DNA from: Chromera velia
Taxonomy: Eukaryota; Sar; Chromeraceae
Direction of reading: 5' to 3'
Assembly: GCA_018398765.1 (NCBI GenBank)
Contig: JAHBMJ010001832.1
Coordinates: 1 to 26,533, forward strand
DNA: 26,533 nt
The first letter of the stretch is position 1; the number at the start of each line of letters is the position of its first letter. The position numbers were made by a program, and so were the translations under genes. The notes under the pieces are model-generated. The model worked only from the letters and a program-made list of their open reading frames with translations. It searched no databases and was not told the origin of the DNA. Below, in pieces: positions 428 to 26,358 of this stretch.

Positions 428-694
428 CATTCGTTTACTCTTCTTGGCGGCCTCAAAGAATTCCTTCTCGCTGAAGAGTTCCGAGTAGGTCCCGTGTCCG
501 ATCTCCATCCATGACTGCCTTTCCTTGGAGGCACTTTTCATCTGCTCCAGGCGTTTGCGCCTCAACTCTTCGATGTCATCCTCATTCATGTTGTCCAGTC
601 TGTTGATCTCTGCATCCAGAGCCTCTTCCTTAGCCTCTAGAGCCTTCAGGACTGTGTCCTCTAACAGGCCCTGCAGCATGTTCGGGTCCCCCAT
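428..694 (-). CDS. TXNDC9: TXNDC9-like (phosducin/thioredoxin-like) protein, first coding exon, partial gene
   Basis: Eighty-nine codons from ATG (694-692) to a donor ATG|gtcagt at 428/427, phase 0. The peptide is helical and charged (leading Met-Gly-Asp-Pro, then Leu-Leu-Glu-Asp...). It carries the N-terminal signature of the TXNDC9/PhLP3 family: 'LDAEINRLDNMNEDDIEELR', then 'RRKRLEQMK', and 'GHGTYSEL', which matches the family's Gly-His-Gly-x-Tyr just before the thioredoxin fold. The exon stops where the first thioredoxin strand (VVCHFYR-like in animals) should begin, so the catalytic-fold exons must lie left of position 1; I did not find them in 1-427. In animals the protein binds the CCT/TRiC chaperonin and modulates actin and tubulin folding in the cytosol. 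Beyond the donor the frame reads on into low-quality sequence, which I treat as intron. A TATAAAT lies close upstream of the ATG, too close to be a normal core promoter. Confidence 0.88.
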
Positions 695-1487
695 TGTGGA
701 TTTATAGGGTGGAGACAGTCAGCCTATGAATGACTAGAGTCTGCGCAAGACAACAGCTAGAGACTTCACCGATTTTGAACCGCTCAGTCTGCAGTCTGTC
801 TTTCTTTTTCCACTGGCACTTGCAGCAAAACTGAATACCCCACCGGCACGAAAGTTCAAGATCAAGTATGTACTAGCGAACATGAAGGGAATTGTCACCC
901 ATGCATCGATCCGGTCAATGTATGGATTGTATAGGATCGAGCGGGAACTTTTCGAACCGATCTTTGACGTTTTAAATATTTGATCAGAGATCTTCTACAC
1001 AGAGCTCGGCTGAGAGCCGCGGACGTCTCCATGCATTACGCGTGCAGCAAATTTCAATCTGACGTGCCCACGAGGCTATTTCCCGCCCAAAATTCCGGGC
1101 CGGGCCATTGACGCACGCGGTGAGCGGGAGCATAAGGGGCAAATTAATGGGGAGGGTCCCTTTGAAGTTGTTTTCCACCGTCAAAGGGTAGCCTTTGCCA
1201 AGGGGACAAACTTTTAGAAAGTTTTTGCCCTGCGACCCCTGCCTCTCCCTTCTTTTCGTTGTTCTCCGAGTCCTACTCTACCGCCGCTTGAGAAATAAGC
1301 CGCAGTAAAAGTGATTAATGAGCAGTGTTCCTAAATTGAGAACAGACGGGACGAACCAGAACTTTTTGACAAACTAGGCTAGATCCACTCCTCATATATG
1401 GGGACGCGACATGCATAACAAAAACCTCAATCAAGTTGATCTGACGCATACTGACGCATGCAATTTTTTGTGCTGCATGACTGCTCG
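695..1487. other. Intergenic, upstream of TXNDC9-like gene
   Basis: No convincing coding sequence on either strand. This segment should hold the 5' leader and promoter of the TXNDC9-like gene, which reads leftward. I see no clear core element beyond AT-rich patches near 970-985. Confidence 0.5.
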
Positions 1488-1765
1488 CATGCAGATCAAC
1501 CAACGTCCGTCCTCAGGAGTGAAACCTCCAAAAAAAGAATGTTAAGAAAGTCTGTCGCCAACATTTCCAGCTGTAAAAAGGAACATGCACGATTTCTACT
1601 TACAATCTCAGCTACTCCCAGTCAAACATCTTCTTACATCTTCTTAATTTCCATTCTTTCTTTCCCTCAATTTTTTTTTTCTTCCCCGGAGTCCCCTCTC
1701 TGGCTGGCTGGACAATACTAGACGATTGCTGGACTACGCACTAGACAGAGTGTGAGATCAGGGGG
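1488..1765 (-). pseudogene. Decayed copy of the 5' end and upstream region of the TOP6B-like gene
   Basis: This stretch matches the start of the TOP6B-like gene near 16695-16885, in the same orientation. Shared blocks include CTGTCGCCAACATTTCCAGCT around the start codon, GGAGTGAAACCTCC inside the first codons, TTCTTTCTTTCCCTCA upstream, and CTGGCTGGCTGGA further upstream. The similarity therefore covers about 25 codons plus about 100 bp of leader or promoter. The copy starts ATG-TTG-GCG-ACA-GAC-TTT-CT like the parent, but relative to the parent has a net 4-nt loss within the next ten codons, so the frame is lost. It is too diverged to be an assembly duplicate. Confidence 0.75.
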
Positions 1766-3160
1766 ACAAAAAGCACCCCACTCGCCCCCGGCATGCAAAA
1801 AGCTAGAAACTGTTGTATATAAAATAGACGCAGTGTAGCACGGCCCCCTGGGTATGCACCGAAAGGCTAAACGTTTAGATGGGCCCTGACTAGGGCCCTG
1901 AGCGCAAGCTAGCACGACAAGATGAAATTGTATACTGAAGTATCAGAAATAATTGTTGATTAGTCTAGACTTGATCAGAATCATCAGATGTAGAAGTAAT
2001 ATTTATAGAAAGCTGTTTCTGACAATCTGACCGGATCTAACCAGATCGACATACTCTAAGACATAAAATAATATTTACGTCTACGTATCGAAACTTTTAA
2101 GGCACAAACGTGCGTGGCTAGATTTTCCAAGTTAATTTTCCAATATCGTTTATATCACTGCTCATCATGAATCTTATGGTAGCGAGCCGGTTGTACTCAA
2201 ACAATGCTTTGTTGATTGTTTTTTTGATATTTTTTACTCCTCGTCTCTCTCCTTCCTACATGCAATGTCGGAGACTCAGAGTCACCATAACAGAGTATGT
2301 CAATTTTGCTCAAAGGTAGTATTATGTTCTAGGTTAGCAGCCAATATATAAGGTCATATGATTATTATAAATAGAGATGCATCTAGAGATGCATTGGCCG
2401 TAGTAAGTCTAGGGACTGTCAGAAAGGGCTAGAAAAGGAAGGAGGTTTCAACCAGTAATAGTCCTAGTAATAGTCCCAGTATGGATCAATCTGACTGAAA
2501 AACAAACAGAAACAATTATTCTACCATTCAAAGTTAATTAAGATTAATCCAGCCGTAGCTTCCACGCCCGCACATGTGTAAGCAAGGTGTCTGACCAAGG
2601 CATGCCGGAACTACCTTAGACGCCACACATAGAAAAAAAAAAAGTTGGGAACGCCTAATTTTATTATTATTTTTTTTTATTTCAAGTGCCTCCAAAAGGA
2701 AAAAAATCACTTTCAACTCTGAAACTTACTTTTCCACACAAAATGTAAACCTAACTTTTGACATTAAAAAAAAAAAATGAGGATGCCTAATTTTTTTTTT
2801 CTTTTTTTATGTGCAGCGCCTAGGAACTATCTCCCTGTCACTATCGACTGGAACTTTTTAGGACTCTAATAGGAGATTCAAGTTCAGCTTAAGTTCTGCG
2901 CTTTTCACGTATAAAGTTCAAAACTTCAAGTCTCTTCCGAAGTTCTGCGCTAGGTTATGCTAGGTCAATCTTTACTAGTGTTTAATACCACAGCCTGAGT
3001 GTAACCACACTTTATTTTAGTACATACATTTTTCCACTTAAATGTCATCGTCACTCTTATCTAAGAAAAAAAAAAGGCGAGAAAACCGGAAAAACTAAGC
3101 ATCTTCCGAAGTTCTGCATCTCTTATCTCAAATCATACCCCGAACTTCTGCAGCCCAGGT
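1766..3160. other. AT-rich intergenic stretch without recognised genes
   Basis: Repeated short stops in all frames. There are several A or T homopolymers of 8-13 nt (2631-2642, 2670-2679, 2766-2777, 2791-2800). The block 'A-run, G-rich, GCCTAATTTT' occurs twice (about 2630-2675 and 2765-2800). The word CGAAGTTCTGC recurs near 2938 and 3108, with relatives near 2900 and 3153. This looks like old repeat debris. Confidence 0.5.
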
Positions 3161-3179
3161 TTAAGGACTCAATAGTGAC

Positions 3180-3880: not shown

Positions 3881-3900
3881 GGTTCACACTCTGAAGTTGT

Positions 3901-3951
3901 AAAAAAAGAAAGAAAGAAAGAAAGAAAGAAAGAAAAAAGGAAAGAAAAAAA
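3901..3951. repeat. (GAAA)n microsatellite
   Basis: Six consecutive GAAA units flanked by imperfect A-rich units, directly after the decayed remnant. An A-rich simple repeat here could be the tail of a retroposed piece, but no target-site duplication was found. Confidence 0.8.
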
Positions 3952-4239
3952 GTTTGTCTGAGTTTTGTTTGTTTCCAGCTTTACTTGAAAAAGGCTATAA
4001 ATCAGGCCCCCTCCTCATTTATGAAACTCGTCAGTTAGGGTGCCCTTATTTTAAAAATAAATTTTCTTGAGATCATACTGAGTCTAGTATACTCTATAGT
4101 ACTCACTCTCATTCAAGATCGAACGTAGGATCGATCGAACCCAGAATTAAATTTTTGATACCAGCTTTGGTATAGATTTAATTTTCCTTTATATTTATGA
4201 ACACCCGTTTGAGATAAGAAGAGCACTAGCACAGGCAGG

Positions 4240-5250
4240 CCAACAGCCTTCTTTTAAGACAAGAGACAGAATAGTTAGATGGTTGAGAGAAAGAAACGTA
4301 GATAAGATAGAAAAAAGAAAGAAAAAAGTGTTTAAGGGGCAGGTAGAAAAAACAATTAAGAGTCAAGACAAGAAAGAGAGAAGAACAGGTAAGACTGAGT
4401 CAGTTTGAGGGGGTTTCAGGGTGGTACAGAGCGGTTCAGAATGGAAATCGCCTTCATTTGTGATCTTTTCTTAAGAAAGAAGAAAATGCAGAAAGAAACA
4501 CTGGTGTACTCCATGTATGCATCAGAGAAAAAGATATTGGAAAAGCCCCTTCTTGCTACACCAAGCCGGCACCCTGGTCAGTACATAGAAGGAGAGTAGC
4601 ATTCAGACTTGGAGAAAGAAGCTTCGCTGTCACAAAAAAAAGAGTGCCGCAGAAAGGTAAACAGAGAGTGCCACTTAAGAAATGAATTTGTCTATTTCTA
4701 TTCTGTTTTGACTTGCTTAGCCTTTCAGTCCTCGAAGATGAGGTCCACGTGCTCATAGAATGCCCAGTGCATGAATGGGAAAGGGAGGAATGCATTGGCT
4801 ATCTGGTACAAGGGTGGACAGATGAGAAGAACAAAAGAGCAAAGCGTGTAAGAAAGTCAGAAGGGGATAGAAAAATCGATAAAATGGCCCTGTTCACCTT
4901 TTTGGTCAACGAAGCAGACTACCATGTAAATACACTTATAAAAAGAATCTTGATGAGATGAAGAGTGTGGAGGAGATGTAAAGAGGAACTTAAGGATGCT
5001 TTTCGAGATGTAACTGCCGAACAGCTTACAAAAGTCCATGACAAAGAAGAAAAAGGGAAAAGAAACAGAGAGCCGCGTTCCAATGTAGAAAATCTGATCG
5101 GTATGGTTTATCAGATGAAAAGAGCAAGAGAAACAGGCTCTGCACATAGGTATACGGTCACAAAAGTAATAGAGAATGTATGCTATCGCTCTACCCTTGC
5201 ACTCTGTCACTCTGTCTTTCACTCGCACTTCCTCAGAGAAAGTCAAGCAT
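4240..5250 (+). mobile_element. LINE (non-LTR retrotransposon) 3' fragment, copy 1, broken
   Basis: The plus strand reads 'LEDEVHVLIECPVHEWEREE' near 4727-4790, a form of the C-terminal Cys/His cluster (ED-E-x-H-x-L-x-x-C-P) found after the reverse transcriptase of many non-LTR retrotransposons. Just upstream one frame reads VAFRLGERSFAVTKKRVP, which aligns with the matching part of the copy at 20.7-22.2 kb. DNA similarity is also visible (AAAAGCCCCTTCTTGCTACA here, AGAGCCCCTTTTTGCTATAC there). Downstream follow 'MALFTFLVNEADYHVNTLI' and a Lys/Glu-rich tail. Several stops and frame changes separate these pieces. No reverse-transcriptase or endonuclease domain remains, and the 3' boundary is not clear. 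Confidence 0.65.
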
Positions 5251-5637: not shown

Positions 5638-5645
5638 CTACTTAG
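5638..5645 (+). repeat. Target-site duplication, left copy
   Basis: CTACTTAG, identical to 6775-6782 on the other side of the hAT-like element. Confidence 0.8.
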
Positions 5646-8569: not shown

Positions 8570-10009
8570 CTGCGTGCAGACAGCAGAGAGAAGAGGAAGC
8601 TAGATCGAGACAGATGCATGCATACATGTACTGAACTGGAAATGCACTGACATATGAAGATGCGCACATCATCCACACCTTCCACCACTACAGCGGGAGA
8701 TTCCGCAGATGTAATGTTGTGTGTGTGTGTGTGTTTGTGCGTGCAAAAGGTCGCTGACCGAGTGGGTGCACGGTTTCGCTGTTCGTGATGGAGGGAGAAG
8801 TAGAGCAACAGACGGATAGAGAGAGCATGAAAGGGACGTGAAAGAGAGGCCTGCATCTCCACCTGTCCTGTGTCCACAAAAAGAAAACGAATGAAAAAAG
8901 CAACCATGCATGTAGACTGCATGGAAGTCCTCCCCTCTTGCCGTGACGTGAAAAGAGACGCCCCGACAAACAAACGGCATAGCTGCTCCATACATTGATT
9001 GATACATACACAAATACAGTCTCTCTCTCTTGCTTGGTACAGGCATGAATGTTCCAACCCGACTATCTGGCTGACTGACTGACCTGAAAGTCTGTTTTTG
9101 TTTCAAATTCACTCGGGTGCTTCTTTCGGGCTCCTTCAAAAAGGGACCTGCAAACACAGAAAGACAAAGAAACATCAACACATACACACACACGAACATT
9201 CTTCATGATGCGCAGGGTAGGTAGCATTCTTCCCCTTTGACTGCAATCTGTACCGACAAACAGACAGGCAGCCATCCACACAGACAGACGGACGACAGCT
9301 CATCTCATGCAGAAACAAAGAAAGAGAGACAGACAGACGGCCCCTCACTTCCTCAAGAGCCCCAAACAAAGTGTGCGATGCAGACAGACAGGAAAACCCC
9401 CTTCCGACCTGAGTCCCTCCCGCACAGCGCGTTGAAGAGAAGGGGTGGCCTGCAGGAGCCCTCCATGCAGAGAGAGAGAGAAACGTGCATGTACGCGAGG
9501 GGAGGGGAGGGGAGGGAATGTTTCAAGGAATCATGACTCAGAAAGGCAGAGAGAAAGACGGTAGGATTGAAGCACAAAGGGAGTCAAGAAGGAAAGAAAG
9601 CAAACAAGAAATTCAGAAAAAAAAGGAACAGAGAAGGAGGGAAGGAAGGAAGGAAGGAAGGAGGGAACGGCACGGTTGATGGAAAGGAAAGGACAGGAGC
9701 CTAAACAGATGGAATTAAAGGAGGTAGGCGAGGATCGAAAGAAAGCAAATGATGGCAAGAAACAAAAAAAGAGGAAGGGTCACTCTTCCTGTCCGCTCCA
9801 CCCCTCTCTCAACCTCTTCTCCACAATATATTTGCTTCCTTCCTTCCTGCCTGAATCTCATTTAATTCTGTCAAGCGACTTCCTTCCTTCCTTCCTCTTC
9901 AAGTTCCTTTCCAGGACGAGAGAGAGAGAGACAGAGCTGAATTTTTTCATCCTAAATTCGCACCTCCCTCGAACGAATCCCTGGGTACCCCCTCCACCTG
10001 CCTGAATGA

Positions 10010-10050: not shown

Positions 10051-13000
10051 CTTCAGATACGACTTATGGAGAGTCCCAAATTGAAGCTTCCGGCCCTCCA
10101 CGTTGATCATCTGCGTGCGCCTTCGTTCGTTCGTTGCAATTAAGGGAGAGGGGAGGGAAGGAAGGAAAGAGGAGAGATGAAAGGAGAGAGAGGTGAAGGA
10201 GGAAGGAGGGGAGATGAAAGGAGAGAGAGGTGAAGGAGGAAAGAGGAGAGATGAAAGGAGAGAGAGGTGAAGGAGGAAAGAGGAGAGATGAAAGGAGAGA
10301 GAGGTGAAGGAGGAAGGAGGAGAGATGAAAGGAGAGAGAGGTGGAGGAAAGAGGAGAGATGAAAGGAGAGAGAGGTGAAGGAGGAAGGAGGAGAGATGAA
10401 AGGACAGAAAGAGAGTTGAAGTGAAAGCCCATGCATGCAAACGGACGGCAAGGGAGGCCCGGGGGAAAGAAAATAAGCGAGTATGTAAGGCCAACAGATA
10501 TTTCATTGTAACATTTAATGAGAGAATTAATGGACGAATGGATGAATGAATGAATGAATGAATGCATGAACCAATAGAGGAAGGAATGAACCGATGAGTG
10601 CACTTTTCAATGTGACCACACACAGGCCGTTTGCATCTCCATAAATGAATCTCATGTAAACATTTACTTTCATACAAAAAGAAAAAGAATTCTGTATGAA
10701 AGTGAACACAGGCCGTTTGCATCTCAATGAATGGATCTCATGTAAAAGGGCCCAGAATCACGAGGAACAGTCAACAAACTTCTCGTTCGAGCTGTTTCTC
10801 TGCCATGAATGGAAACAAAAATGAGAAACGAGAGACAGGTATCCTCATGCAGACATGCACCACTCGACCATCAGTCTGTGCATGCCAAGAGCAAACAGAA
10901 CAAAAACTCCCATTCCCGCCCCCCCCCCCCNNNNNNNNNNNNNNNNNNNNNNNNNNNNNNNNNNNNNNNNNNNNNNNNNNNNNNNNNNNNNNNNNNNNNN
11001 NNNNNNNNNNNNNNNNNNNNNNNNNNNNNNNNNNNNNNNNNNNNNNNNNNNNNNNNNNNNNNNNNNNNNNNNNNNNNNNNNNNNNNNNNNNNNNNNNNNC
11101 CCCCCCCCGACTGACCACCCGAAGTTTTTTCCACCCACCCGAGGCCGCCTTCTTCACGCGGAACCGAACTCCCCCCTGCATGCATTAATGGATTGGTGGA
11201 TTTATGCGTGAAATAAATCGTGAGGAGAGGACACAATGAGTTCGTGGTGGAGGGAGGGAGATAGGAGACGGCCACCGACCCAACCATCAAGGAGGGAAAA
11301 ACGGATCAGAAAGTACCGGAAAATTCAAACATGAGACGCATCATAGAGAGAGAGCAACTCTCTCTCTGTGGACCTCAAGACGTTGCGGGTACACTCCGCT
11401 GCCCGACAAGCAAGCATTGAGAGAGAGAAATCAAGAAAGACAGAACGAAGGGACGACGTCTGTTTCTTTTCTTTCCTCTTTTGCAAGCACAGAACAGGAA
11501 AAGAGAAGAAAAACGACCGCAGGGCTGGGAAAATTTAAAGAAAGAAATGGATCGAGAGAGAAAATCACGTCACGACGAGATTAGGCAGATACAATCCTCT
11601 CCTTCCTTCCTTCCTTCCTTCCTTCCTTCCGTCTTTCCTTCCTTCCCGCCTTCTGCCTACGCAGCTTTTTCCCGACGAATTCTCTGACACGCTGAAAGAA
11701 AAACCGAATGACCGACTGTCCGGCATGACCGACTGACTCGCTGACTGACCAATTGTTTGAGAAAATTAGTCCTCCCCCCTCCTCTTGATTCTCTTTCTTC
11801 TTCCAAACCCCCCCCCTCCCCTCCTCCCTCTATACAACCAAAAGAAGCCTTTCCGGGGCCCCAGGAGGACCCCATACCCTCTCCCCTCACAGTCACACCT
11901 CCATACTCCCACACAGACAGAGGCAGAGAAAGAGAACCGGGTTCCTTCACACCCACACCACCCTCAGGGCCTTCATCCTCCTCGTCCTCCTCCTCGTCCT
12001 CTCCAAAGCCCCCAAACCCCCCCTCTTCCTCTTCATGTTCGTCTTCGCCTGCCATCCGTTCTTCTTCTTCTTCGTCCTCCTCTTCCTCCATCCATTCTCC
12101 CATTGCGTCTCCTTCCCCCCTCGTTCTCTTCCTTCTCTGTCCTCCTCTACTCCGTCCCTGTCCCTGTCTCTGCTGTCTCTGCACCCCCCTCACGGCCTCG
12201 AAGCTTCCCCTGTCGTCTGAACTCTCCAGAGCCTCCGCAGACACCAGACGCACTCCGAACTTCCCTCCCAAATCGCGAAAGAAGTCCCTACATGCAGATC
12301 GACATGCAGACAGCCAGGCATTAATGTCGAGCAGACAAGCGAGAGCAGTGTGTGCTCAAGTCCGGTGGGGCAGACACATTCAGTACAGCAAGATAGAAAT
12401 AGATAGAATACAGAGGGGAAACAGGTGCCTGAGTGCAACAAAAAATTAATTAGCAAGAAGAAAAAGCTAATTAATTGAGCAAGATAGATAGAATACAGAG
12501 GGGAAACAGGTGCCTGAGTGCAACAAAAAATTAATTAGCAAGAAGAAAAAGCTCATTAATTGAGCAAGATAGATAGAATACAGAGGGGAAACAGGTGCCT
12601 GAGTGCAACAAAAAATTAATTAGCAAGAAGAAAAAGCTAATTAATTGAGCAAGATAGATAGAATACAGAGGGGAAACAGGTGCCTGAGTGCAACAAAAAA
12701 TTAATTAGCAAGAAGAAAAAGCTAATTAATTGAGCAAGATAGATAGAATACAGAGGGGAAACAGGTGCCTGAGTGCAACAAAAAATTAATTAGCAAGAAG
12801 AAAAAGCTAATTAATTGAGCAAGATAGATAGAATACAGAGGGGAAACAGGTGCCTGAGTGCAACAAAAAATTAATTAGCAAGAAGAAAAAGCTAATTAAT
12901 TGAGCAAGATAGATAGAATACAGAGGGGAAACAGGTGCCTGAGTGCAACAAAAAATTAATTAGCAAGAAGAAAAAGCTAATTAATTGAGCAAGATAGATA

Positions 13001-14878
13001 GAATACAGAGGGGAAACAGGTGCCTGAGTGCAACAAAAAATTAATTAGCAAGAAGAAAAAGCTAATTAATTGAGCAAGATAGATAGAATACAGAGGGGAA
13101 ACAGGTGCCTGAGTGCAACAAAAAATTAATTAGCAAGAAGAAAAAGCTAATTAATTGAGCAAGATAGATAGAATACAGAGGGGAAACAGGTGCCTGAGTG
13201 CAACAAAAAATTAATTAGCAAGAAGAAAAAGCTAATTAATTGAGCAAGATAGATAGAATACAGAGGGGAAACAGGTGCCTGAGTGCAACAAAAAATTAAT
13301 TAGCAAGAAGAAAAAGCTAATTAATTGAGCAAGATAGATAGAATACAGAGGGGAAACAGGTGCCTGAGTGCAACAAAAAATTAATTAGCAAGAAGAAAAA
13401 GCTAATTAATTGAGCAAGATAGATAGAATACAGAGGGGAAACAGGTGCCTGAGTGCAACAAAAAATTAATTAGCAAGAAGAAAAAGCTAATTAATTGAGC
13501 AAGATAGATAGAATACAGAGGGGAAACAGGTGCCTGAGTGCAACAAAAAATTAATTAGCAAGAAGAAAAAGCTAATTAATTGAGCAAGATAGATAGAATA
13601 CAGAGGGGAAACAGGTGCCTGAGTGCAACAAAAAATTAATTAGCAAGAAGAAAAAGCTAATTAATTGAGCAAGATAGATAGAATACAGAGGGGAAACAGG
13701 TGCCTGAGTGCAACAAAAAATTAATTAGCAAGAAGAAAAAGCTAATTAATTGAGCAAGATAGATAGAATACAGAGGGGAAACAGGTGCCTGAGTGCAACA
13801 AAAAATTAATTAGCAAGAAGAAAAAGCTAATTAATTGAGCAAGATAGATAGAATANGTCACACCTCCATACTCCCACACAGACAGAGGCAGAGAAAGAGA
13901 ACCGGGTTCCTTCACACCCACACCACCCTCAGGGCCTTCATCCTCCTCGTCCTCCTCCTCGTCCTCTCCAAAGCCCCCAAACCCCCCCTCTTCCTCTTCA
14001 TGTTCGTCTTCGCCTGCCATCCGTTCTTCTTCTTCTTCGTCCTCCTCTTCCTCCATCCATTCTCCCATTGCGTCTCCTTCCCCCCTCGTTCTCTTCCTTC
14101 TCTGTCCTCCTCTACTCCGTCCCTGTCCCTGTCTCTGCTGTCTCTGCACCCCCCTCACGGCCTCGAAGCTTCCCCTGTCGTCTGAACTCTCCAGAGCCTC
14201 CGCAGACACCAGACGCACTCCGAACTTCCCTCCCAAATCGCGAAAGAAGTCCCTACATGCAGATCGACATGCAGACAGCCAGGCATTAATGTCGAGCAGA
14301 CAAGCGAGAGCAGTGTGTGCTCAAGTCCGGTGGGGCAGACACATTCAGTACAGCAAGATAGAAATAGATAGAATACAGAGGGGAAACAGGTGCCTGAGTG
14401 CAACAAAAAATTAATTAGCAAGAAGAAAAAGCTAATTAATTGAGCAAGATAGATAGAATACAGAGGGGAAACAGGTGCCTGAGTGCAACAAAAAATTAAT
14501 TAGCAAGAAGAAAAAGCTAATTAATTGAGCAAGATAGATAGAATACAGAGGGGAAACAGGTGCCTGAGTGCAACAAAAAATTAATTAGCAAGAAGAAAAA
14601 GCTAATTAATTGAGCAAGATAGATAGAATACAGAGGGGAAACACGTGCCTGAGTGCAAGAAAAAAAAAAAAATGCAAACAGGTCTATCTGCACGCCGGCT
14701 CCGAAACAGAACAAAATAATGGAATCAAGCCGAAAGATAAAAGGGAGACTGCAGGAGACTTGACCGCTCACCTCTGCCTACCCACCAACCACCGACCGAC
14801 CCACCTGCAGGACTGGAAGAGAGCACATGAGAGGGCGTCGGCGTAGAGGAGCGGCATTCCGTTGGCTGCACGGCTCAG

Positions 14879-14923: not shown

Positions 14924-16778
14924 TTCGCAGGCAGACAGACAGGCACACAGAGGGAGAGGGAGACACAGACGAATTGTGGGACTATCAGTACTGTTTGCGA
15001 ACAGACAAGACAAATGGAAGGCAATAAACACACAAACAGGATGAGTGAAAAAGAAGGCGAAATGTTGAGCATGCTGACTGAGTGGAGAAAAAAAGACGAA
15101 CAACAAATTGCTGTCCACGTTCATGTGGACAGAGAAACAATTCCTTCCACGGTATCTGTGCTTCTTCAGATAACCTGCGTTCGTACAAGTTGACCTGACA
15201 AGGTGAAATAACAGACTTCCAATATCACAGACAGACAGACAGACGTACCTCAATGACTCCATCCTCCTCTTCCCTGTCTTCTGCCTTTGCCATCATTTCC
15301 CTTTCCCTTTCTCTCTGTGTGCTCCCCTGCGTCTCTCTCCGACTCCCTCCCACAGCACCACCTGTACTTTTCCCTCCCCCTGCAGCTGCTCCTCCGAAGC
15401 CTCCCGCCATGAGATCGTCAGAGAAAGAAGTTTCTTCGTCTACCTCTATCTCTGTCCGTGCTGATTCGTTGACTTTCACAGCCGTCTCAAAAAGAAGAAA
15501 GGAGACCCTGACGTCATCCCCCCGGGTCTCTCGTCTCTCCAGAATCCCCACCGACGACCTGCAGCCCTCCCTCTCCTGCCCCCTTTGGAGAGACCGAGTG
15601 GCCCTTTCCTGTCTCTGTCTCCTTCTGTCCGTCTCTGTATCTCTTCTGTCCAACCCAAAGTCTCTCGCCCCCCCTCTTCCTTCTTCCTCCTCCTCACAGA
15701 CATTTTGAGAAAAGCTGAAAGAAAGATTTCCTCCCATTCCCTCTTCCTCCTCTTCTTCGGTCTCCCTCACTCTCTCTCTCTCTCCCCTACCCCCCCTGAG
15801 ATCGCCGAAACGGAACCCCAACAGATTCTCCACAACGCTCCACTGAGGAAACCTTTCTTCTTCCTCTTCCTCTTCCCCCCCCCTCCCTCTTCTCTCTGTA
15901 CATGAAGGGGGAGGAAAGTCAACCGACACCACCCCACAGGACGAAGCGGCGTCAACGAAGGACAAAGACACCTGCGGATGCCACACAGACGAGTGCGCAA
16001 TGTAGCTACACACCCGGGGATCTGCCTGACGGTGGGGAGAGAAGACCACCACAGAGAACTCAGACATCCAAGGCCACTCTTCGAAGGGCCTCCTGGAATG
16101 CACACAGTTGCACACCAGGGGAGACTCAGACTCTGCGTTGTACTTCAGTTGGAACGACAAGACTTCCCCAGGACGCACTCTCAACTTCACAGAGATCGCA
16201 CCGTCTGTCCACCGGGTCGCGTGGAGAAGAACCAACTTCAGGCCTACACCAAACTTCCCTGCAGGCGTACTTTCTTTTTCTTTCTCACTGTCCCCCCCCA
16301 CATGATCTGAGCTGCTTTTTACAAAAGAGTTCTTGGAGGACCCGAAAATCGTCCCCAAAAGATCCAAATTCTCCACCTGCACCCCTGTGCCGCTGTCCCG
16401 CACACTCACCCGGAGGGCGTGGAGAGTGTCTCTCGGCAAGTCCTGGTAGCTCTCGGGGATTCTCTTCAACAGACTGCTGTGCTCCTCCTCAACACAAACC
16501 TCTGCCCTCAAATCACGACCTTTCTCCTCCCCCTCTTCATCTTCCCCTCCGTCTCCTTCCTCCGTGAAAGAAGAGGAACTGGAAGAATAAGAAGAAGGAC
16601 GCTGTTTCCCTCTTTCCCAGGCTGTGGTGGCACTGGGTGCACCCACTCGGGATGACCTGAGCATTTCGAGGGAATCCAGCGCGTTGTCCAGAAGCTCTTT
16701 GCAGCTCATCAACAGACCGTCCTCGGGAGTGAAACCTCCAAGGAAGGAATTTCGAAACAGAAAGTCTGTCGCCAACAT
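7157..16778 (-). CDS. TOP6BL: Topoisomerase VI subunit B-like protein (TOP6B/MTOPVIB/TOPOVIBL family), seven-exon model
   Basis: Proposed exons: 16778-15249, 14878-14805, 12287-11750, 11175-11116 (tentative), 9449-9409, 9147-9084 and 8569-7157. All junction phases agree (0, 2, 0, 0, 2, 0) and the sum is 1240 codons including the stop. The order of parts matches the family: a GHKL ATPase fold (residues about 10-260) with N-box, DxGxG and glycine-rich lid motifs, then the transducer ('AANGMPLL' and following strands), then the last transducer helices ('PSLQRAVREGLRSLFE', 'APSIARALSAIISRS'). Topo VI B-type proteins pair with Spo11/TopVIA; the meiotic forms support double-strand break formation in the nucleus. 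An acidic insert (exon 3) and a disordered tail of about 430 residues are additions. I saw no H2TH domain, which favours a meiotic B-like form over canonical TOP6B, though the ATP motifs look intact. The 85-bp array and the duplicated block interrupt intron 2 in the assembly. Confidence 0.82.
9084..9147 (-). CDS. TOP6BL: TOP6B-like 64-nt exon: transducer helix
   Basis: Acceptor tgtttgcag, donor TTTCAG|gtcagt, phase 2 in and 0 out. It encodes 'SLFEGARKKHPSEFETKTDF' and a final Gln. It continues the helix from the microexon and leads to the conserved 'A-x-x-I-A-x-x-I' helix of the last exon. Confidence 0.83.
9409..9449 (-). CDS. TOP6BL: TOP6B-like 41-nt microexon: transducer helix
   Basis: Acceptor ctcctgcag, donor CTCAG|gtcgga, phase 0 in and 2 out. 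It encodes 'ATPSLQRAVREGL' plus two thirds of an Arg codon, an amphipathic helix like the start of the long C-terminal transducer helix in topo VI B proteins. The phase fits the next exon exactly. Confidence 0.7.
9635..9664. repeat. (GGAA)n microsatellite
   Basis: About five GGAA units in the long intron between exon 3 and the microexon; a complementary (TTCC)n stretch lies at 9877-9894. Confidence 0.8.
10009..10050. repeat. Compound (CT)n(CA)n microsatellite
   Basis: Ten CT units run directly into about nine CA units. Intronic in the TOP6B-like gene. Confidence 0.85.
10169..10410. repeat. 37-bp purine minisatellite, about six and a half units
   Basis: The unit begins GAGAGATGAAAGGAGAGAG and ends AGGTGAAGGAGGAARGAG. 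One unit lacks about 6 bp. Since 37 is not a multiple of 3, each unit changes frame; the long open frames read across it are an artefact of a stop-poor repeat. Intronic. Confidence 0.85.
10527..10566. repeat. (AATG)n microsatellite
   Basis: Four perfect AATG units at 10545-10560 with diverged units (ATGG, ACGA) before them. Confidence 0.7.
10621..10747. repeat. Direct repeat pair around a hairpin
   Basis: About 40 bp starting CACAGGCCGTTTGCATCTC at 10621 recurs at 10707 with few changes. Between them ACTTTCATACA (10666-10676) and TGTATGAAAGT (10693-10703) form a perfect 11-bp inverted repeat with a 16-nt loop. Intronic. Confidence 0.75.
10931..11099. other. Assembly gap (169 N)
   Basis: Undetermined bases bounded by a C run on each side (10919-10930 and 11100-11108). 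The homopolymer probably stopped the reads. Confidence 0.98.
11116..11175 (-). CDS. TOP6BL: TOP6B-like tentative 60-nt exon beside the N gap
   Basis: Twenty codons, 'GGVRFRVKKAASGGWKKLRV', between acceptor gcatgcag and donor GTG|gtcagt, phase 0 in and out, so it can be included or skipped without changing frame. A basic strand ending in W-x-x-L would fit the stretch before the final transducer helices. It lies 16 nt from the C run that borders the gap, so local sequence quality is doubtful. Confidence 0.42.
11596..11646. repeat. (CTTC)n microsatellite
   Basis: Seven or more TTCC units in the intron downstream of exon 3. Confidence 0.85.
11750..12287 (-). CDS. TOP6BL: TOP6B-like exon 3: transducer strands plus acidic insert
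   Basis: 538 nt, from acceptor gcatgtag to donor CAATTG|gtcagt, phase 2 in and 0 out. The joining codon AG|G gives Arg and continues 'DFFRDLGGKFGVRLVSAEAL', the strand after the PLL motif in Top6B proteins. Next comes a Gln/Arg-rich part, then about 65 residues dominated by Glu/Asp, then a Gly-rich run ending 'GRTNFLKQL'. The acidic block is unusual for the family. An identical truncated copy lies at 14252-13857. The donor assignment is by phase and site quality only. Confidence 0.82.
12390..13855. repeat. 85-bp satellite array A in intron 2, 17 units
   Basis: One 91-bp first unit (6 extra nt), then sixteen 85-bp units from 12481 and a 15-nt stub that stops at a single N. The units are almost identical; one has GCTCATTAAT for GCTAATTAAT near 12551. 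Each unit holds AATTAATTAGC and GCTAATTAATT, an 11-bp inverted repeat with an 11-nt loop. On the gene's strand each unit reads pyrimidine-rich DNA followed by CACTCAG, like an intron 3' end. Confidence 0.95.
13856..13856. other. Single-N contig join
   Basis: One N falls inside an 85-bp unit and is followed at once by a repeat of sequence from 11892 onward, as expected where overlapping contigs were not merged. Confidence 0.85.
13857..14354 (-). pseudogene. Second, truncated copy of TOP6B-like exon 3, probable assembly duplicate
   Basis: I see no difference from 11892-12389 (offset 1965). It contains exon 3 from its acceptor (exon start 14252) to the N. Identity of both exon and flanking intron, plus the N, argues for an assembly artefact rather than a recent tandem duplication. 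Confidence 0.75.
14355..14660. repeat. 85-bp satellite array B, right-hand edge
   Basis: Three full units (first one 91 bp, as in array A) and a diverged last unit that turns into an A run at about 14660. Arrays A and B are probably the two ends of one array of unknown true length. Confidence 0.9.
14805..14878 (-). CDS. TOP6BL: TOP6B-like exon 2: start of transducer domain
   Basis: 74 nt between acceptor tgtgcag (after a (TG)n tract) and donor TGCAG|gtgggt, phase 0 in and 2 out. It encodes 'LSRAANGMPLLYADALSC' and on to 'FQSC', matching the family pattern R-x-A-N-R-x-P-L-L at the transducer start. The usual Arg after Asn is Gly here. Confidence 0.85.
14882..14916. repeat. (CA)n microsatellite forming the acceptor tract of intron 1
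   Basis: About 17 CA units. On the gene's strand this is a (TG)n tract directly before the exon 2 acceptor, so its length could influence splicing. Confidence 0.85.
15231..15247. repeat. (CAGA)n run at the 5' end of intron 1
   Basis: On the gene's strand this reads GTACGTCTGTCTGTCTG starting at the donor. Confidence 0.85.
15249..16778 (-). CDS. TOP6BL: TOP6B-like exon 1: GHKL ATPase domain
   Basis: 510 codons. The start ATG (16778-16776) has an in-frame TAG 9 nt upstream. Motifs: N-box 'CKELLDNALDS' (Glu28, Asn32); 'LRVSVRDSGTGV' with Asp128-x-Gly130-x-Gly132; 'GKFGVGLKLVLLHA' (Gly174-Gly179), very close to the GKFGLGAKMALIWS of plant TOP6B. Residues 220-275 (e.g. 'SEFSVVVFSPHRQAD', 'WHPQVSLSFVDA') fit the strands closing the ATPase fold. 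Low-complexity Ser/Glu blocks sit at 60-100, between motifs I and II, and at 290-400. The segment 'DDVRVSFLLFETAVKVNES' may begin the transducer. The exon ends ATT-GAG|gtacgt, phase 0, followed by a (GTCT)n run. Confidence 0.9.
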
Positions 16779-17624
16779 TTCCAGCTAGACAACGGAACAC
16801 GACTCCCAAGTAAACACCTTTTTTCAATTCTTTCTTTCCCTCACCTTTTTTGCTTCCCCGATCTTCCTGGCTGGCTGGATAGAGTGTGAAAAGGAGACGG
16901 GTATGAGAAACTTTATTCAATCAAGAAGAAACGGAACTTGTCCGAAAGGCAAAAATGCAGATGTCACTCGTCGTGCAGGTCTGTGTACTCAAACCAATGA
17001 GGACGATCGAAGATGATCCATGGCCGGTTCGAATGGATCAGAATCAACTAGCTCTGAAGATCTCGTAATTGCTCCCGCGGCGGTGCCATTGCACTCATGC
17101 AGTCCGCGCACTCCGCTCGCGCGGTGCGAATGGCCTAGCTGACCGCGCCTGCATGGCCGCCCAGCTAGAAAGCGACAACTCAAAGGAGCGCGTGCATGCA
17201 TGCATGCATGCATGCAGTTAATTGACGCTTTGCAAGCATATATATATATATGCAACGTTGCATGCATGCAACACGTGCATATGTTACTACGTACGTTGCT
17301 GTTTAACTGACAGATTGTCGATATGTGTTTACACACAGATGAATTGTTGGGAACTTCTATACTTCATCCAAGTAGAAGACGTAGAAGATCAACACACTCA
17401 TATAGACGCACTACACGAGAGCGACAGACAAGTGTATGTCAGCCAACTTGAAGAAGAACTGCTTGACCGAAAAAGTATATAAAGCCGCGAGAATCTATTC
17501 TTGTCAATTCGATCTCTCGATTCCTATGATATGCTCCAACGTCGAGACCACGCGATCCGTCTATTTATGACATATTGCATGAACTCCAAGAGACCGTTGC
17601 TTCTGTGAAGTCGAGAATCACTTG
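16779..17624. other. Intergenic region between the TOP6B-like gene and the plus-strand remnant
   Basis: Contains the upstream region of the TOP6B-like gene (shared with the copy at 1.5-1.8 kb), a (GCAT)n run at 17192-17216, an (AT)n run near 17238-17250 and a TATATAAAG at 17476. A 47-codon frame (17339-17482) overlaps the TATATAAAG and is not convincing. Confidence 0.5.
17192..17216. repeat. (GCAT)n palindromic microsatellite
   Basis: GTGCATGCATGCATGCATGC, self-complementary, so able to form a cruciform. Confidence 0.85.
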
Positions 17625-19278
17625 ATGTCGTTCTCAAGCCTCCAGTCACGAATCGACAGCCTGGCTCAAGCAGCAGGCCTGAGAATCTCAACAGATGGAG
17701 AAACCTTCCTCAAAGATCTTTTGACATCCGTCCAGCTTCCAAATAGAAATCTCATCAAATTCTTAAGAGATCAAAACGGTGAATACGTGCCAAAGGAATC
17801 GGAGGACTGGAAGAAAGTTCGAAATGAGGGCGCAACAGAGCAGTCAGGAGCCTGGCAGGATGAAGACGGGAACTGGCTCGTCCCCCTGCTCATCTCGGTA
17901 CCCAATGTACAGTACAACAGAAGGGGAAGAGGTGTTGCAACCCGAACAGAGTACAGACTTCACGCGGGCACAAATGCTTACCTTACAAATTCGCACTCCC
18001 CAGTCCCCAGAGGGTTGTGGGACACTTCCACCGTCCTAACAATATCGCGAGCCGTCCTTGGGGTGTCTGAATACGGCGGGGACTTCAGCCAGGACGCCCT
18101 AACAGTGTCACACTATGAGGGAAATGCGACAGTGATTCGCACGGTGGGGGGGAAGGTATTTGCTTGCACTAGTCTCCACACATTTTAGAAAGAGAAAAAG
18201 CAAGAGGGGGTTGTAGTGGGAGCCGAACCTTATCCTCTGAGGTCCGTGAGATTGGGGCTCACGATGACAGGAGGCCCGGAGGAAGACGACCAGTGGGATA
18301 AGTGGAATCTCGTGAAATTCAGGTCTCCTGAAACATCGGAAGAGTGCTTGGCCCACGCATCATCTTACGCATGGGTCAGCGTGTCCAAGCGTGGGGCGTC
18401 TCCGCGCCACCTCCAGGGGTGAGCACAGACTCTCTAATGAAAACCTGCAATTTCGTTCGAGTCACTGTTTCAGTGGGCAATACTGAGGAGAGTAACGTGA
18501 ATGACGTCGATTACTATGACGATATCCGAACTCTCATCCCTGCTCGTCAACATGCAAAGTTCGCAGGTCCCGATGGAGAGTGCATCTCTCCCAGTCTGTC
18601 GCAGCTCTACGCCTCTGATATGTTGGGGCGCTCGACATAACTGAGCTGCTGTTCACTCTCAGGGCAGTTTTCAACCTCAAGTTAGGGGGTAACCGTTTCA
18701 CGTGGGAGGAGGAGGAGCTAGTTACAAAGCAGGAAGCAGAGGCTCTTTCTGTAGGGCATGAGGTTCACCGGGCTGACTCACGGGAGAGGTCGATGCCGGG
18801 AGACAGAGGTTGGGGGGCAAGAGTGAGCCCCTCTGTGCTCGAGAGACATATCAATGGAGGGTCGAAAGCTCTGGCCTCCTTCCCCTTGCCTTCGATCCTA
18901 GGAATGTGCGGAGCCCCCTACGTCACGATGCTTGAGCAAAAAATTCGACTGCTCTGCATTCATGCATACGGGTTTCATGATCAGCCTGGTTCTCCCTCTC
19001 TCGGAGTGCTCGTTGGTGCTCTCGGTAAACTTGACGAGTGGGTTAAGCAACCTCTTCCCCCTCGGAATCCCGAGCCTAGGTCCAGTGGCACTAAAGTGAA
19101 TGAAGGGTGGTTCCGTTGGTTTGGCTTGGGTGGCGCGGCTCCTGCATCACCGAGTCTGACTGATTCGGTTTCGTTTTCTTCTCCTCGAATGCACACCCAA
19201 CAGCTGGAGGAAAGAAAGACCGAGGTTCAAATGATGCGAGTGCAACTTGCGACGAGTGCGGGAGAAGACGGCACCTAA
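17625..19278 (+). pseudogene. Broken protein-coding remnant of unknown family, possibly an old viral or mobile-element gene
   Basis: About 1.65 kb with strong protein-like character but spread over more than one frame, with about three breaks. Early part: 'GETFLKDLLTSVQLPNRNL', 'QDEDGNWLVPLLISVPNVQ', 'RGLWDTSTVLTISRAVLGV'. Later part: a helical segment near 18900-19050 and a Pro/Ser-rich end. A compact helical and strand-rich protein with a disordered tail would suit a capsid or nucleocapsid protein, but I recognise no motif and a dead host gene is possible. A TATATAAAG lies 150 bp upstream and a 7-bp hairpin lies 45 bp downstream. No terminal repeats were seen. Treated as a fossil. Confidence 0.45.
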
Positions 19279-19342: not shown

Positions 19343-19344
19343 TG

Positions 19345-20750: not shown

Positions 20751-22157
20751 ATTTAGTGGGTAAGGAAGGCTTTGAAGGAGAAAAGAAATGAAGCAGTAGG
20801 GCAGGCAATCCTCACATGCCTAAGAGAGGGGGTAGAAAACGAAATGGGGGGGGGGAGAGGAATGCATCCTTTTCATATTTTCCCTCATCTGAAGCAATGT
20901 GCACAGGCACTCTACACAGACAGAGGAATGCACCCTTTTGTAAAAGAAAGACTAAAAGGAAGCGCAGAGCAGAGAGAAATACAGGTAGTCAACAAGAAAG
21001 TGGACGGGATAGAGAGATGACTGCTGAAAAGAACAAAAAATGAGCTAGACAAGAAAAAGAGAGAGGCGTTTGCACATAAAATAGAAAGAAACATAAGAGA
21101 GAAGAGCAGTCAGGAGAAGGCAGAACTGACAGGAATGATGATGGCTGACGTGCACAGAAAGGTTTCAAACGGAAAGGGTCTCCACCTTTCTTTGTTTAAA
21201 GACAGAGCAGATAGAAAGGTTGGCTTGACAATGAAAATAGACAGAGAGAAAATAGGGAGAGCCCCTTTTTGCTATACGAGAGTGGCACCGCGATCGGAAC
21301 ACAGGAGGAGAGCAGCATGCAGGGTAGGAGACAGGGCTGTGGCTGCGACTCAGGGAAAAATTCCGATAAGGGGGGGAGAGAAGGTGCCGTTACAGAAAAG
21401 GACGTGCCAGTTCTGTCGAAGGTGGTTGGGAATCAAGGTGGTGGAAGATGAAATCCATCTAGTGACAGAATATCCTGTTTTTAACATAGAGAGAGCAGAG
21501 ATGTTCAGGAAGATAGAAGAGAAATAGGACAGCAAGATGGAAGAAAGAGCCAGAAAGGCAGCCACAGAAAGAGAAGGGCTTAATAAAGAAGAGGGAAAAA
21601 GAGACAACTCGACGCTTTTCTGCTTTCTGTTAAATGAATGTCATACTGCAGTCGATGAGTTTTTGGAATGGGCGTCATTCAGATGGAGGGTGTTTGAGGA
21701 GTGTCCAGGACGGTACGGACACATAGAGGGAGACGCTCTGGCAGCTAGATATGCAGGAATCACCGGAAGGCAGCGGGCGATCGAGAGACTAACAAAAGAA
21801 TATGAGGAGACGATTGATAACTTAGAGACGACCGAAGGAGCATTAGGGTGGGGAAGGAGGGAGCCGCAGAAGAAGATTGATAAAGCGAACAAGAAGAGCG
21901 AGGAAGCCCAAATCGTATGCCGTTTCAGATCGATTTTCAGGCTGGAAAGCCAACACGGATCCAGAGCCGTGGCTTGAACAACGAACAATCATGCAGCAGC
22001 GGCCAGGGCAACAGACTCTGGCGGGCCCCGAGGGTGGGGTCTGATACCTCAGCTTAGGCTGGGGAACGTCCCACTTAGCGCCCCACCCTGCTAGCTCTGG
22101 CGACAGATAGACATAGCGGGAAGGCCTTAGGGCGGAACATATCAATCAATCAATCAA
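20750..22157 (+). mobile_element. LINE (non-LTR retrotransposon) 3' fragment, copy 2
   Basis: One plus-strand frame is readable from about 20763 to 21977 with only a few stops (TGA near 21018, TAG at 21525-21527). It contains 'KRTCQFCRRWLGIKVVEDEI' followed by HLVTEYPVFNIER, the C-terminal C-x2-C...ED-E-x-H cluster of non-LTR elements, with Cys replaced by Tyr in the final CP. Downstream 'STLFCFLLNECHTAVDEFL' matches 'MALFTFLVNEADYHVNTLI' of copy 1. After the frame ends, about 160 bp of G+C-rich 3' UTR leads to a tail of ATCA repeats (22141-22157), a typical LINE 3' end. The endonuclease and reverse-transcriptase core are missing, so this is a 5'-truncated copy. Confidence 0.75.
22141..22157 (+). 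repeat. (ATCA)n tail of LINE copy 2
   Basis: Four tetranucleotide units that mark the probable 3' end and orientation of the element. Confidence 0.75.
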
Positions 22158-23979: not shown

Positions 23980-24011
<32 letters not shown>

Positions 24012-24085
24012 CGGACCTTCGGTGGCAGAAATGCGAAGACAGTGGAAGCAGAAGTGCAACTCGTAGGAGACTTCTACTGCATGAG

Positions 24086-24128
<43 letters not shown>

Positions 24129-24980
24129 CCAGAGAGAACCAAAAAGAATGAAAAAGCAGATTTAAGAGAAAAAAGAGCGATAAATCGTGGAAAGAAAAGA
24201 AGGACGAAAAAGAAACAATGGATGAAGTGACGGAAGACACCGGTGTTAGTGAAGAGATGAAACAAGACAGAGAGAGTGGAATGAATGAAGTGGGCCACCC
24301 CGACTCCCAACCGTTCAACCTCCATTCATTCCTGAATTCATCATCAAGTTGAATTAAGGAAGTGAGAGAAAGAAAAGGGATATAGATATGAACCAAATCA
24401 AAGGAGCCCCCTCCGTATCTCAATCTGACCACCTCGAACAGAAGTTGAACGCTCTTCTGTTCTCTAGGCACAAACAAAACCCCCCCCCGCATCCCCTGTA
24501 TGGCCGCCCACCTGCGTCTGTATGAAAGGAGGGGCACAAAGATGCCGCCAGGGGAACTTGCACGATCAATCTTCTGCTCGACGCCGTCACTTCTTTCCTC
24601 TCCCACAGGACCACAGAAGAACTCGCAGGCTTCACCTCGGCAGCTACCTGACCGACCATGCAGATCTTATCAGATCAGATTCGCAGCGAAATCAAAGAAA
24701 AGAAAAGTGAACGAACGAAAACGTCGAAAAAATCTGAACATCAACTCCGTCCTCTCATTGACCTGACTGCCTCCCAGCCAGCCAGCCAGACAGACAGACA
24801 GACAAAAGGGAGCCGTGAACTCCGAAGAGAAAATACATGAAGGCAGCTAGGGAGACTAATTGATGTCTGTCTCGAAAACGGACGGCAAAACATCTCTCAA
24901 TGGGGAAGGCCTTGCATGCAGAAAGAAGAAAGAAAGAAAACACATCCACCCTCCCTCCCTCCCTCCCAGCATCCCATCCC

Positions 24981-25014
<34 letters not shown>

Positions 25015-26358
25015 GACAGACCGACGAACGAACGAACGAACGAACGGACCTGCCTGAGTCCCGACACGGTGGAGGCAGACAGAGAGAGTCCTGCAGCTGC
25101 GGAGGCCCCCAGCAGTCCTCTCGGTTTTTTTGGTCCCCCGTCCTGTTCCCCTCCTCCTCTTCCTCCTCCTCCTCCTTGTGCCTGTGTCTGTGCTTGGAGA
25201 GACGACAGAGGGGCCGGCCCTCTTGACTCTTGCTGGTGTTGTGAGGGAAGGACAAGGATGGAGGAGGCGGACGAATTTGCGGCGTTCTGCTGGACAGGGA
25301 CAGAGAGGGGGACAGACAGCGCGGCGGCATCGATCGACGAGTAGGCGTCAGAGATCACCGTCTCCTTCCGCACGAGGGCCAAATGCAACTGCAAACAGAC
25401 AGACAGAAAGAAAGACAGAAATTAAACAGAGGGGGAAAAACGACAAATGGGTAAATTCCATCGCCCAAACGACACGCAGGTGGCGAAAAAATCACCCCTA
25501 AGAAAACTACCCGGAAAAGAACACATAATATTTCGGTTGCTCTCAGACGCAAACGCATGGACACACACTCCACTGTCTCTATCGGAGCGTCTGAGCAGTC
25601 AGAGGAATGCACACTACCAGAATGAGAACCAAAAACATTTTGCTTCACAAACTCATCGATCGGTCTCTTCTCTGCCCTTTCTTCCTTCCTTCCTCCCTTC
25701 TCCCCATGCACCGACCGACCTCAAGCGTCTCCACGGAAGCGTCCGAGAAGTCCAAAACCACGGGCACTTCGAGTCCCACGTGCCCACACGAAGCAGATGA
25801 GAGAGAAGGGGGGGAAGAGGAGGAGGAAAAGGGACCCAGACGAGGCCCCAGAGAACCTCGGGGCAAGCCGTGGCCCCAAGGGGGGGGATGGGATGAGGAG
25901 GACCTGCACGCACGCACTTAGAGGGAGGGAGGGACAGAGGCATCTCGCTAGGGGGACAGACGACTGCATGCACACACTCAGAAACTGCACGGCCGGCCGG
26001 TAGGCCTGCAGAAAAACCCTGCAGGCAAGCAGGTGCTCGCTTTGTTCTCTCTCTGCATGCGTACCCGGCCGCTCTTCCTTCCTTCCCCCTTTTGTTCGTT
26101 TGATGCAAGCTTGGCAAAGTGTCCTTTTCCTTCCCCTCTGCCTGTCTGTCTGTTTGTGCATGCGTGGCTGTGTATGCGCCTTGAACGAAGCAAGCTCATC
26201 TGTTCTCAAAGAAAACTTTTCCCTTAACAAAAGCCTTGCCCCGACTGACGTAGTGGAAGATGAAGAGGAAGAGGAGGGAGGCACCATCTGTCTGCTGAAC
26301 GCCCGAGGGACCCCTATCACGCACACCTTCCGACCCCCTGCGCGAATCTGGAGCCATT
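22576..26358 (-). CDS. RGP1: RGP1-like protein, C-terminal part, six-exon model (5' end outside window)
   Basis: Exons 26358-26250, 25903-25720, 25388-25050, 24647-24512, 24461-24394 (tentative) and 23037-22576 chain in phase (2, 0, 0, 1, 0) to a TAA, about 431 residues. Key match: 'VVLDFSDASVETLELHLALV' and 'RKETV' follow the Rgp1 pattern (x-F-D-F-S-x-x-x-V-x-C-x-Q-x-S-V-S-L-x-x-E-E-x-V). The next exons give 'KEVTASSRRLIVQVPLAASL' and PSFHT, fitting the R-T-S-F-S-L-P-I-P-L...P-G-F-x-T motif, then strands and a 'SWSSFSFPCKV' block like the family's F-S-W-D-L-P-I-K-V. RGP1 joins RIC1 as exchange factor for Rab6/Ypt6 at the Golgi. Long Ser, Gly and Gln stretches are inserted between the strands. 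The N-terminal arrestin-like half should lie right of the window. TRAPP-type beta-sandwich proteins are an alternative. Confidence 0.62.
23630..23664. repeat. (CAGG)n(CAGA)n microsatellite
   Basis: Tetranucleotide run inside the last RGP1-like intron. Confidence 0.85.
23697..23860. repeat. 65-bp tandem repeat, about two and a half units
   Basis: CAGAAATCCTCTTTCGGTCT starts at 23702 and 23767, with a shortened third unit from 23832. Intronic. Confidence 0.8.
23903..24010. repeat. (AAAG)n/(AAGG)n microsatellite
   Basis: About 108 bp of AAAG with an AAGG block in the middle. Intronic. Confidence 0.9.
24088..24123. repeat. (GA)n microsatellite
   Basis: About 17 GA units. Intronic. Confidence 0.9.
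24394..24461 (-). CDS. RGP1: RGP1-like internal exon e (tentative)
   Basis: Chosen because it converts phase 1 to phase 0, as the neighbours need. Acceptor tgcctagag, donor GATTTG|gttcat. Encodes 'EQKSVQLLFEVVRLRYGGGS', a strand that could match the family's V-S-L-x-W-x-L-x-F-E-F. An earlier donor, GAG|gtggtc at 24433, also gives phase 0. Confidence 0.4.
24512..24647 (-). CDS. RGP1: RGP1-like internal exon d
   Basis: 136 nt, acceptor gtcggtcag, donor GACGCAG|gtgggc, phase 0 in and 1 out. Encodes 'VAAEVKPASSSVVLWERKEV' then TASSRRLIVQVPLAASLC, like the family's strand leading to P-I-P-L. Confidence 0.65.
24776..24804. repeat. (CCAG)n(ACAG)n microsatellite
   Basis: Tetranucleotide run in the intron between exons c and d of the RGP1-like gene. 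Confidence 0.8.
24979..25049. repeat. (CAGA)n(CGAA)n run at the 5' end of an intron
   Basis: On the gene's strand it reads GTCCGTTCGTTCGTTCG... from the donor of exon c, then (GTCT)n. Confidence 0.85.
25050..25388 (-). CDS. RGP1: RGP1-like internal exon c
   Basis: 339 nt, acceptor ctgtttgcag, donor GGCAG|gtccgt, phase 0 in and out. Starts 'LHLALVRKETVISDAYSSID', completing the strand begun in the previous exon. The rest is a low-complexity insert (Ser/Ala, Gln, a GGGGGRGGG block). Confidence 0.72.
25720..25903 (-). CDS. RGP1: RGP1-like internal exon b
   Basis: 184 nt, acceptor gtgcgtgcag, donor CTTGAG|gtcggt, phase 2 in and 0 out. A Ser/Pro-rich first half is followed by 'CGHVGLEVPVVLDFSDASVE' and TLE, the first half of the diagnostic strand pair. 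Confidence 0.72.
26250..26358 (-). CDS. RGP1: RGP1-like internal exon a
   Basis: 109 nt, acceptor ggatgcag, donor ACTAC|gtcagt, phase 1 in and 2 out. Encodes 'WLQIRAGGRKVCVIGVPRAF' then SRQMVPP and a Ser run. 'KVCVIGVPRAF' could be the strand matching the family's I-x-V-P-F-x-V. An in-frame ATG (26370) lies just upstream after a stop, so a start there cannot be excluded. Confidence 0.55.

Follow-up and report, generated by a model that had tools for sequence, protein, structure and literature searches.

C at intron position +3 and four-base GT tails at the 5' splice sites of U2-type introns sampled from Chromera velia

The canonical 5' splice site of U2-type introns, in the excerpts of published work on which we draw throughout, reads (A/C)AG:GU(A/G)AGU (PMC3488318; the colon marks the cut), and two reviews give A or G as the base at intron position +3 (PMC3488318; PMC11732430), which interacts weakly with G44 of the U6 small nuclear RNA (snRNA) (PMC11732430; PMC9803359). 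Human genes contain GTNNGT tandem donors with a 4-base offset, which often yield candidates for nonsense-mediated decay (PMC2423196), and in yeasts a lineage-wide shift towards U at +4 has left the pairing sequences of U1 and U6 invariant (PMC10581693). Among alveolates, Symbiodinium uses GC and GA donors (PMC4083563) and Amoebophrya has non-canonical introns (PMC7789003). Here we analyse a 26,533-nucleotide stretch of the genome of Chromera velia (contig JAHBMJ010001832.1, assembly GCA_018398765.1; hereafter the window), in which an earlier note, made from the letters alone, had described introns that start with GTC and continue as tandem GTNN tetranucleotides. This pattern is genuine, a variant 5' splice site that recurs across the genes that we sampled from the same genome. 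The introns are major-spliceosome (U2-type) GT-AG introns with the donor consensus G:GTCAGT in the sample; the C at +3 is the surprising part, and the account of it that we give below in terms of U6 is a proposal. Chromera thus resembles Symbiodinium and Amoebophrya as an alveolate with unusual 5' splice sites, but positions +1 and +2 vary in those organisms whereas here GT is kept and +3 is changed. Our searches of the open-licence literature gave no report of this variant.

The genome sampled was the window's own assembly (177.8 Mb, 4040 contigs), which also yielded 11 alveolin-family (IMCp) and 58 light-harvesting-protein matches, a gene content suggestive of a photosynthetic alveolate. Merging the chaperonin, tubulin, AAA and phosphatase loci and three loci of U1 gave 59 regions (222 kb); DEAD-box loci were located in the genome and lie outside the sample. 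We aligned 14 approximate reference protein sequences to these regions with a spliced protein-to-DNA aligner that required GT and AG and had no further donor preference. Sixteen of the 57 region-strand alignments scored below 250 and were dropped; the other 41 (score of at least 250) hold 180 introns, 179 of them evaluable. At each junction every GT and AG within 45 bases was compared, and a filter on margin (6), identity (0.4) and gaps (at most two) retained 115 introns, of which the 114 with at least 60 bases, in 34 regions, form our main set; 65 evaluable introns fell outside the filter.

The base at +3 of these 114 protein-fixed donors is C in 64, G in 29, A in 13 and T in 8. The resulting share of C (56%; 95% interval 0.47–0.64 by bootstrap over regions) compares with 28.8% for the C that follows 1627 control GTs inside introns, and a purine, which is a consensus feature of major U2-type introns and not a strict requirement, occupies +3 in only 42/114. 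C at +3 is present in 27 of the 34 regions and in every aligned protein group (chaperonin, tubulin, AAA, phosphatase), so that the suggestion that the feature is genome-wide held within the sample. In the 65 introns outside the filter the same tendency is fainter (C 27, G 23, A 9, T 6, with a GT at +9 in 10/65). We also let donor dinucleotides compete openly: 66 junctions with identity of at least 0.5, no gap and margin 6, pre-placed with six donor dinucleotides, were re-scored with all 16 within 30 bases. GT won at 63 of the 66, and 37 of these 63 carry C at +3; an AT donor, allowed in this competition, appeared at a single junction. In a strict subset of the main set, C stands at +3 in 37/63 donors.

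The other donor positions are those of canonical U2-type introns, with G at -1 (84%), A at +4 (53%), G at +5 (97%) and T at +6 (73%), as are the GT, the AG acceptor and, as shown below, U1 and U6; it is at +3 that the two part, with C in 56%, G in 25% and A in 11% here. The commonest donor hexamers are GTCAGT (29), GTGGGT (11), GTCAGC (9), GTCGGT (7) and GTAAGT (7). C at +3 is coupled to A at +4 (44/64, against 7/29 when +3 is G; P = 1e-4), and exon-side and intron-side donor matches are anticorrelated (Spearman -0.42, P = 3e-6), as in a two-class model. U12-type introns were considered and rejected: GTATCC is absent from the 25 commonest hexamers, and 97% of donors have G at +5. The acceptors, for which the aligner required AG, read TGCAG (T 0.85 at -5, G 0.85 at -4, C 0.98 at -3; 114 introns).

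Downstream of the cut, GT recurs every four bases: it is found in 81 of the 114 donors at +5, 40 at +9, 32 at +13, 21 at +17, 16 at +21 and 14 at +25. From +9 to +25, 123 of 570 on-phase positions hold GT (0.216), against 75 of 1710 off-phase positions from +7 to +26 (0.044). In the protein alignment, the GT that is cut is the first one of a run and usually has an exonic G at -1; a GT four bases further upstream exists in only 2/114. As in the human GTNNGT tandem donors, a second GT stands at +5, and its use, which the earlier note had raised as a possible slipping of U1, would shift the reading frame; unlike them, the series here continues at +9, +13 and +17, and splicing at the second GT is only potential. 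Runs of one to eight GTNN units number 33, 47, 15, 8, 6, 2, 2 and 1, an approximately geometric fall from two units onwards. Beyond +8, agreement at lag 4 is alike at the G, the T and both N positions, and NN is copied no less faithfully than GT; this even agreement between successive units indicates that whole repeat units are copied. Whole-unit copying and near-geometric run lengths are also properties of tetranucleotide microsatellites, from which these tails differ in having one end fixed at a splice junction.

Intron interiors are themselves rich in such repeats: adjacent identical 4-mers have a frequency of 0.059 at lag 4, whereas lags 3 and 5 give 0.015 and 0.017, and exons 0.014. Once GTNNGT is present, the run continues in 34/81 donors against 74/239 interior sites (Fisher P = 0.078), and the next unit follows in 19/34 against 40/74. 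The splicing-enhancer role that the earlier note had suggested for the tail thus found no support, NN beyond +8 being copied as faithfully as GT and interior runs extending nearly as often, with room for a modest donor excess. Over whole regions GT runs continue in 195/920 and 260/1096 cases on the two strands, and over the window in 10/77 and 24/128 (0.13–0.24 overall). C at +3 has a similar share among donors whether tandem GT is absent (16/27), confined to +5 (27/47) or present at both +5 and +9 (17/34); the repeat is therefore not the cause of +3 C, and we are dealing with two phenomena and not one. The tail beyond +6 is probably tetranucleotide repeat growth seeded by GTNNGT and mutational in origin. 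A weaker 4-base phase lies upstream of the acceptors (lag-4 identity 0.446 over the last 24 intron bases), where T at -9 (0.67) and G at -8 (0.53) form a second such phase at the intron's other end. Intron lengths modulo 4 (24, 24, 35 and 31 introns with remainders 0, 1, 2 and 3) reveal no clear phase locking.

We then looked at the snRNAs that face the donor. Of three U1 matches in the genome, one (L001) lies above the Rfam cut-off, and its 5' start, AAACUUACCUGG, is canonical where it pairs with the donor. A second (L002) has a canonical 5' end but a 3' part that diverges from the model, and the third (L003) matches model positions 12–123 only, so both look like truncated U1 copies. U6, with seven matches, is canonical through ACAGAGA in all five copies fetched. 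Since U1 and U6 are canonical at the donor-facing positions, no snRNA base compensates for +3 C, and a compensating base in the U1 5' end, which the earlier note had raised, was not found in L001, the only match above the cut-off. Position 2 of L001 (1501–1512) is A and not the U of the Rfam consensus (AAACUUACCUG versus AUACUUACCUG); this A would pair with U at +7, yet +7 is mostly C.

Position +3 stands opposite U1 position 6, as deduced from the pair between +4 and position 5 in the excerpted PMC10581693. Pairing energies were computed on example oligonucleotides in a fixed register, with AU as test letters at +7/+8. For U1 they amount to -7.5 kcal/mol for CAGGUCAGU (GUCAGU) against -11.6 for CAGGUAAGU (GUAAGU), and for U6 to -1.8 kcal/mol for GUCAGUAU (GUCAGU) against +0.7 for GUAAGUAU (GUAAGU). 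Extended pairing with U6 beyond +6 was examined by eye, with an assumed U6 numbering, and discarded: C at +7 and A or G at +8 are unpaired with the U6 bases before ACAGA.

The explanation that we tentatively favour, while holding it as somewhat short of probable, is a genome-wide drift of the U2-type donor consensus to G:GTCAGT, in which pairing shifted from U1 to U6 and the tail arose by slippage. C at +3 would give up the pair with U1 position 6 and could gain a Watson-Crick pair with U6 G44; with the first pair lost and the second possible, such donors would bind U1 less strongly and, after the hand-off, U6 more strongly, and the near-fixed +5 G and frequent +4 A would keep both helices workable. 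GTNNGT, as one and a half 4-base units, would be a seed for repeat growth, and replication slippage could extend the donor on its intron side into (GTCA)n, (GTCG)n or (GTTC)n; because GTNNGT is repeat-like and the introns are rich in tetranucleotide repeats, slippage would be expected to lengthen donors. The cut would still be made at the first GT, usually after the exonic G at -1. The change would parallel the +4 U shift of yeasts (PMC10581693) as a lineage-wide donor change under invariant U1 and U6 pairing sequences, and differ from it in the position (+3 and not +4), in the base, and in the presence of METTL16-family (PF05971) and SNRNP27 genes, which is in line with the +4 A. The METTL16 reading of PF05971 is uncertain, as the family has bacterial members and matched 5 of 14 prokaryote control genomes. 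A wider formulation, in which the whole nuclear genome moved its donors from a U1-optimised state with a +3 purine to a U6-favouring +3 C, with the snRNA pairing sequences unchanged and the tetranucleotide runs anchored at donors, we regard as doubtful.

Several observations weigh against the drift from U1 to U6 pairing with a slippage tail. Unconstrained RNAduplex calculations give no U6 gain (GUCAGUC -0.1 against GUAAGUC -1.4), and U at +4, the best U6 partner (-6.9 in the fixed register), is rare with +3 C (6/64). The canonical status of U1 and U6 concerns sequence letters alone, RNA modifications aside, and the introns are predictions made by aligning approximate reference protein sequences. 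As to the tail, runs at donors are more often extended than are the GT runs of whole regions and of the window, so that a modest donor-specific excess is possible, and the interior seeds are largely repeats themselves, which raises the interior control.

Among the alternatives, an unlikely one is that contact with a protein, for instance the U1-C, LUC7, SNRNP27 or PRP8 of this lineage, determines the +3 C, and not pairing with U6 G44. Genes for LUC7 (two matches, both on the same contig) and SNRNP27 are present in the genome and could have diverged, and the excerpted yeast study ties the +4 donor preference to SNRNP27K and METTL16 with snRNAs unchanged (PMC10581693). Against it, the coupling of +3 to +4 fits base pairing.

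Also unlikely, and slightly more so in our judgement, is functional redundancy, according to which tandem GTNN is selected as U1 or a U1 auxiliary protein binds several registers, the exonic G and U5 fixing the cut at the first GT. It would account for the excess of on-phase over off-phase GT from the donor onward and for run continuation at donors that exceeds that of interiors, at P = 0.078, and the rates of about 0.21–0.24 over whole regions. Against it, GT positions beyond +8 are kept no better than NN positions, 33/114 donors have no GT at +5 and 80/114 lack the pair of GTs at +5 and +9, and no run length is preferred.

An artefact of composition, low-complexity sequence or misplaced junctions is very improbable: although intron interiors are rich in 4-base repeats and the pattern weakens in low-confidence introns, C follows GT about half as often inside introns as at donors, its fraction is higher in the better-supported sets (27/65 outside the filter, 64/114 and 37/63 within the main and strict sets), GT wins even when it is not required, and a donor matrix from other contigs recovers the sites of the window. 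That the introns are introner-like insertions sharing fixed ends is hardly credible, even with introners with odd splice motifs described, in the excerpt, in the alveolate Amoebophrya (PMC7789003), since introns at different loci lack shared full-length sequence: all-against-all blastn of the 114 gave 17 non-self matches from 10 query introns, those listed being 20–42 bases long apart from two longer ones (339 bases with 67% identity and 92 bases with 79%).

If C is the commonest +3 base across this genome while U1 and U6 are canonical at their pairing positions, the pair between +3 and U1 can be given up genome-wide, and the roles of U6 G44 and of the U1-to-U6 hand-off become testable in a natural experiment. 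Gene finders trained elsewhere could misplace donors in the Chromera velia genome, and 4-base repeats that sit at donors would be an uncommon way for splice sites to vary. More generally, the pattern hints at an unusual balance in how the splicing machinery picks intron starts.

In the window, the seven donor strings for which the earlier note gave coordinates all occur exactly as written on the minus strand, and C is the commonest +3 base among them: 5/7 have C (at 427, 11749, 9083, 25719 and 25049), the others having G (14804) and A (15248). The note's count of eight +3 C in about eleven donors includes four for which it gives no coordinates. They are predicted sites, placed by reading frame and by the donor matrix, which was trained on the 114 introns from other contigs and scored over the 1512 minus-strand GTs of the window; their out-of-sample ranks are 1, 2, 3, 4, 7, 22 and 33. 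The features are as follows, the donor tracts being given with the matrix rank that, with their letters, supports them.

417..427, minus strand: predicted donor tract GTCAGTCAGTC, belonging to the first intron downstream of the TXNDC9-like exon; +3 C; rank 3/1512.
428..694, minus strand: putative TXNDC9-like coding exon, an open frame reading MGDPNMLQGLLED...KKSKRM; the next exon lies outside the window.
9071..9083, minus strand: predicted donor tract GTCAGTCAGTCAG; +3 C; rank 1/1512.
11731..11749, minus strand: predicted donor tract GTCAGTCAGCGAGTCAGTC; +3 C; rank 7/1512.
14789..14804, minus strand: predicted donor tract GTGGGTCGGTCGGTGG; +3 G; rank 4/1512.
15227..15248, minus strand: predicted donor tract GTACGTCTGTCTGTCTG...; +3 A; rank 33/1512; 4-base repeat at 15227–15244.
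15249..16784, minus strand: open frame weakly similar to topoisomerase VI subunit B, with profile matches below cut-off.
25024..25049, minus strand: predicted donor tract GTCCGTTCGTTCGTTCG...; +3 C; rank 22/1512; 4-base repeat at 25024–25046.
25709..25719, minus strand: predicted donor tract GTCGGTCGGTG; +3 C; rank 2/1512.

The name TXNDC9 for the exon at 428..694 is putative; the exon had no PDB match, no Pfam match above cut-off, no NCBIfam support and no phage match. The topoisomerase-like frame matched NF003218 (E = 4.7e-7, 28.7 bits, under its cut-off of 274) and, below cut-off, HATPase_c (E = 3.5e-4), and a PDB search gave no match. A copy of about 100 bases, 79% identical, links 1490–1585 with 16700–16799, at the start of this frame, and is perhaps a duplicated fragment of it. 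Pfam and NCBIfam searches of the region from 22.6 to 26.4 kb were without match, and a repeat search of two short stretches found none. On the plus strand, long frames of 201, 102 and 219 amino acids occupy 17583–19278, the 201- and 219-residue ones without Pfam or NCBIfam match. Plus-strand frames at 4730–4800 and 21021–21977 carry VHVLIECP-like and EDEIHLV-like stretches, which we take to resemble the tails of non-LTR (long terminal repeat) retroelement proteins; the frame at 21021–21527 had no NCBIfam match. Finally, an 809-base stretch occurs twice, at 11892–12700 and 13857–14665, with 99.6% identity, and both copies continue into an 85-base satellite (17.1 and 3.6 copies); as the join near 13856 contains a single N, the duplication may be an assembly artefact.

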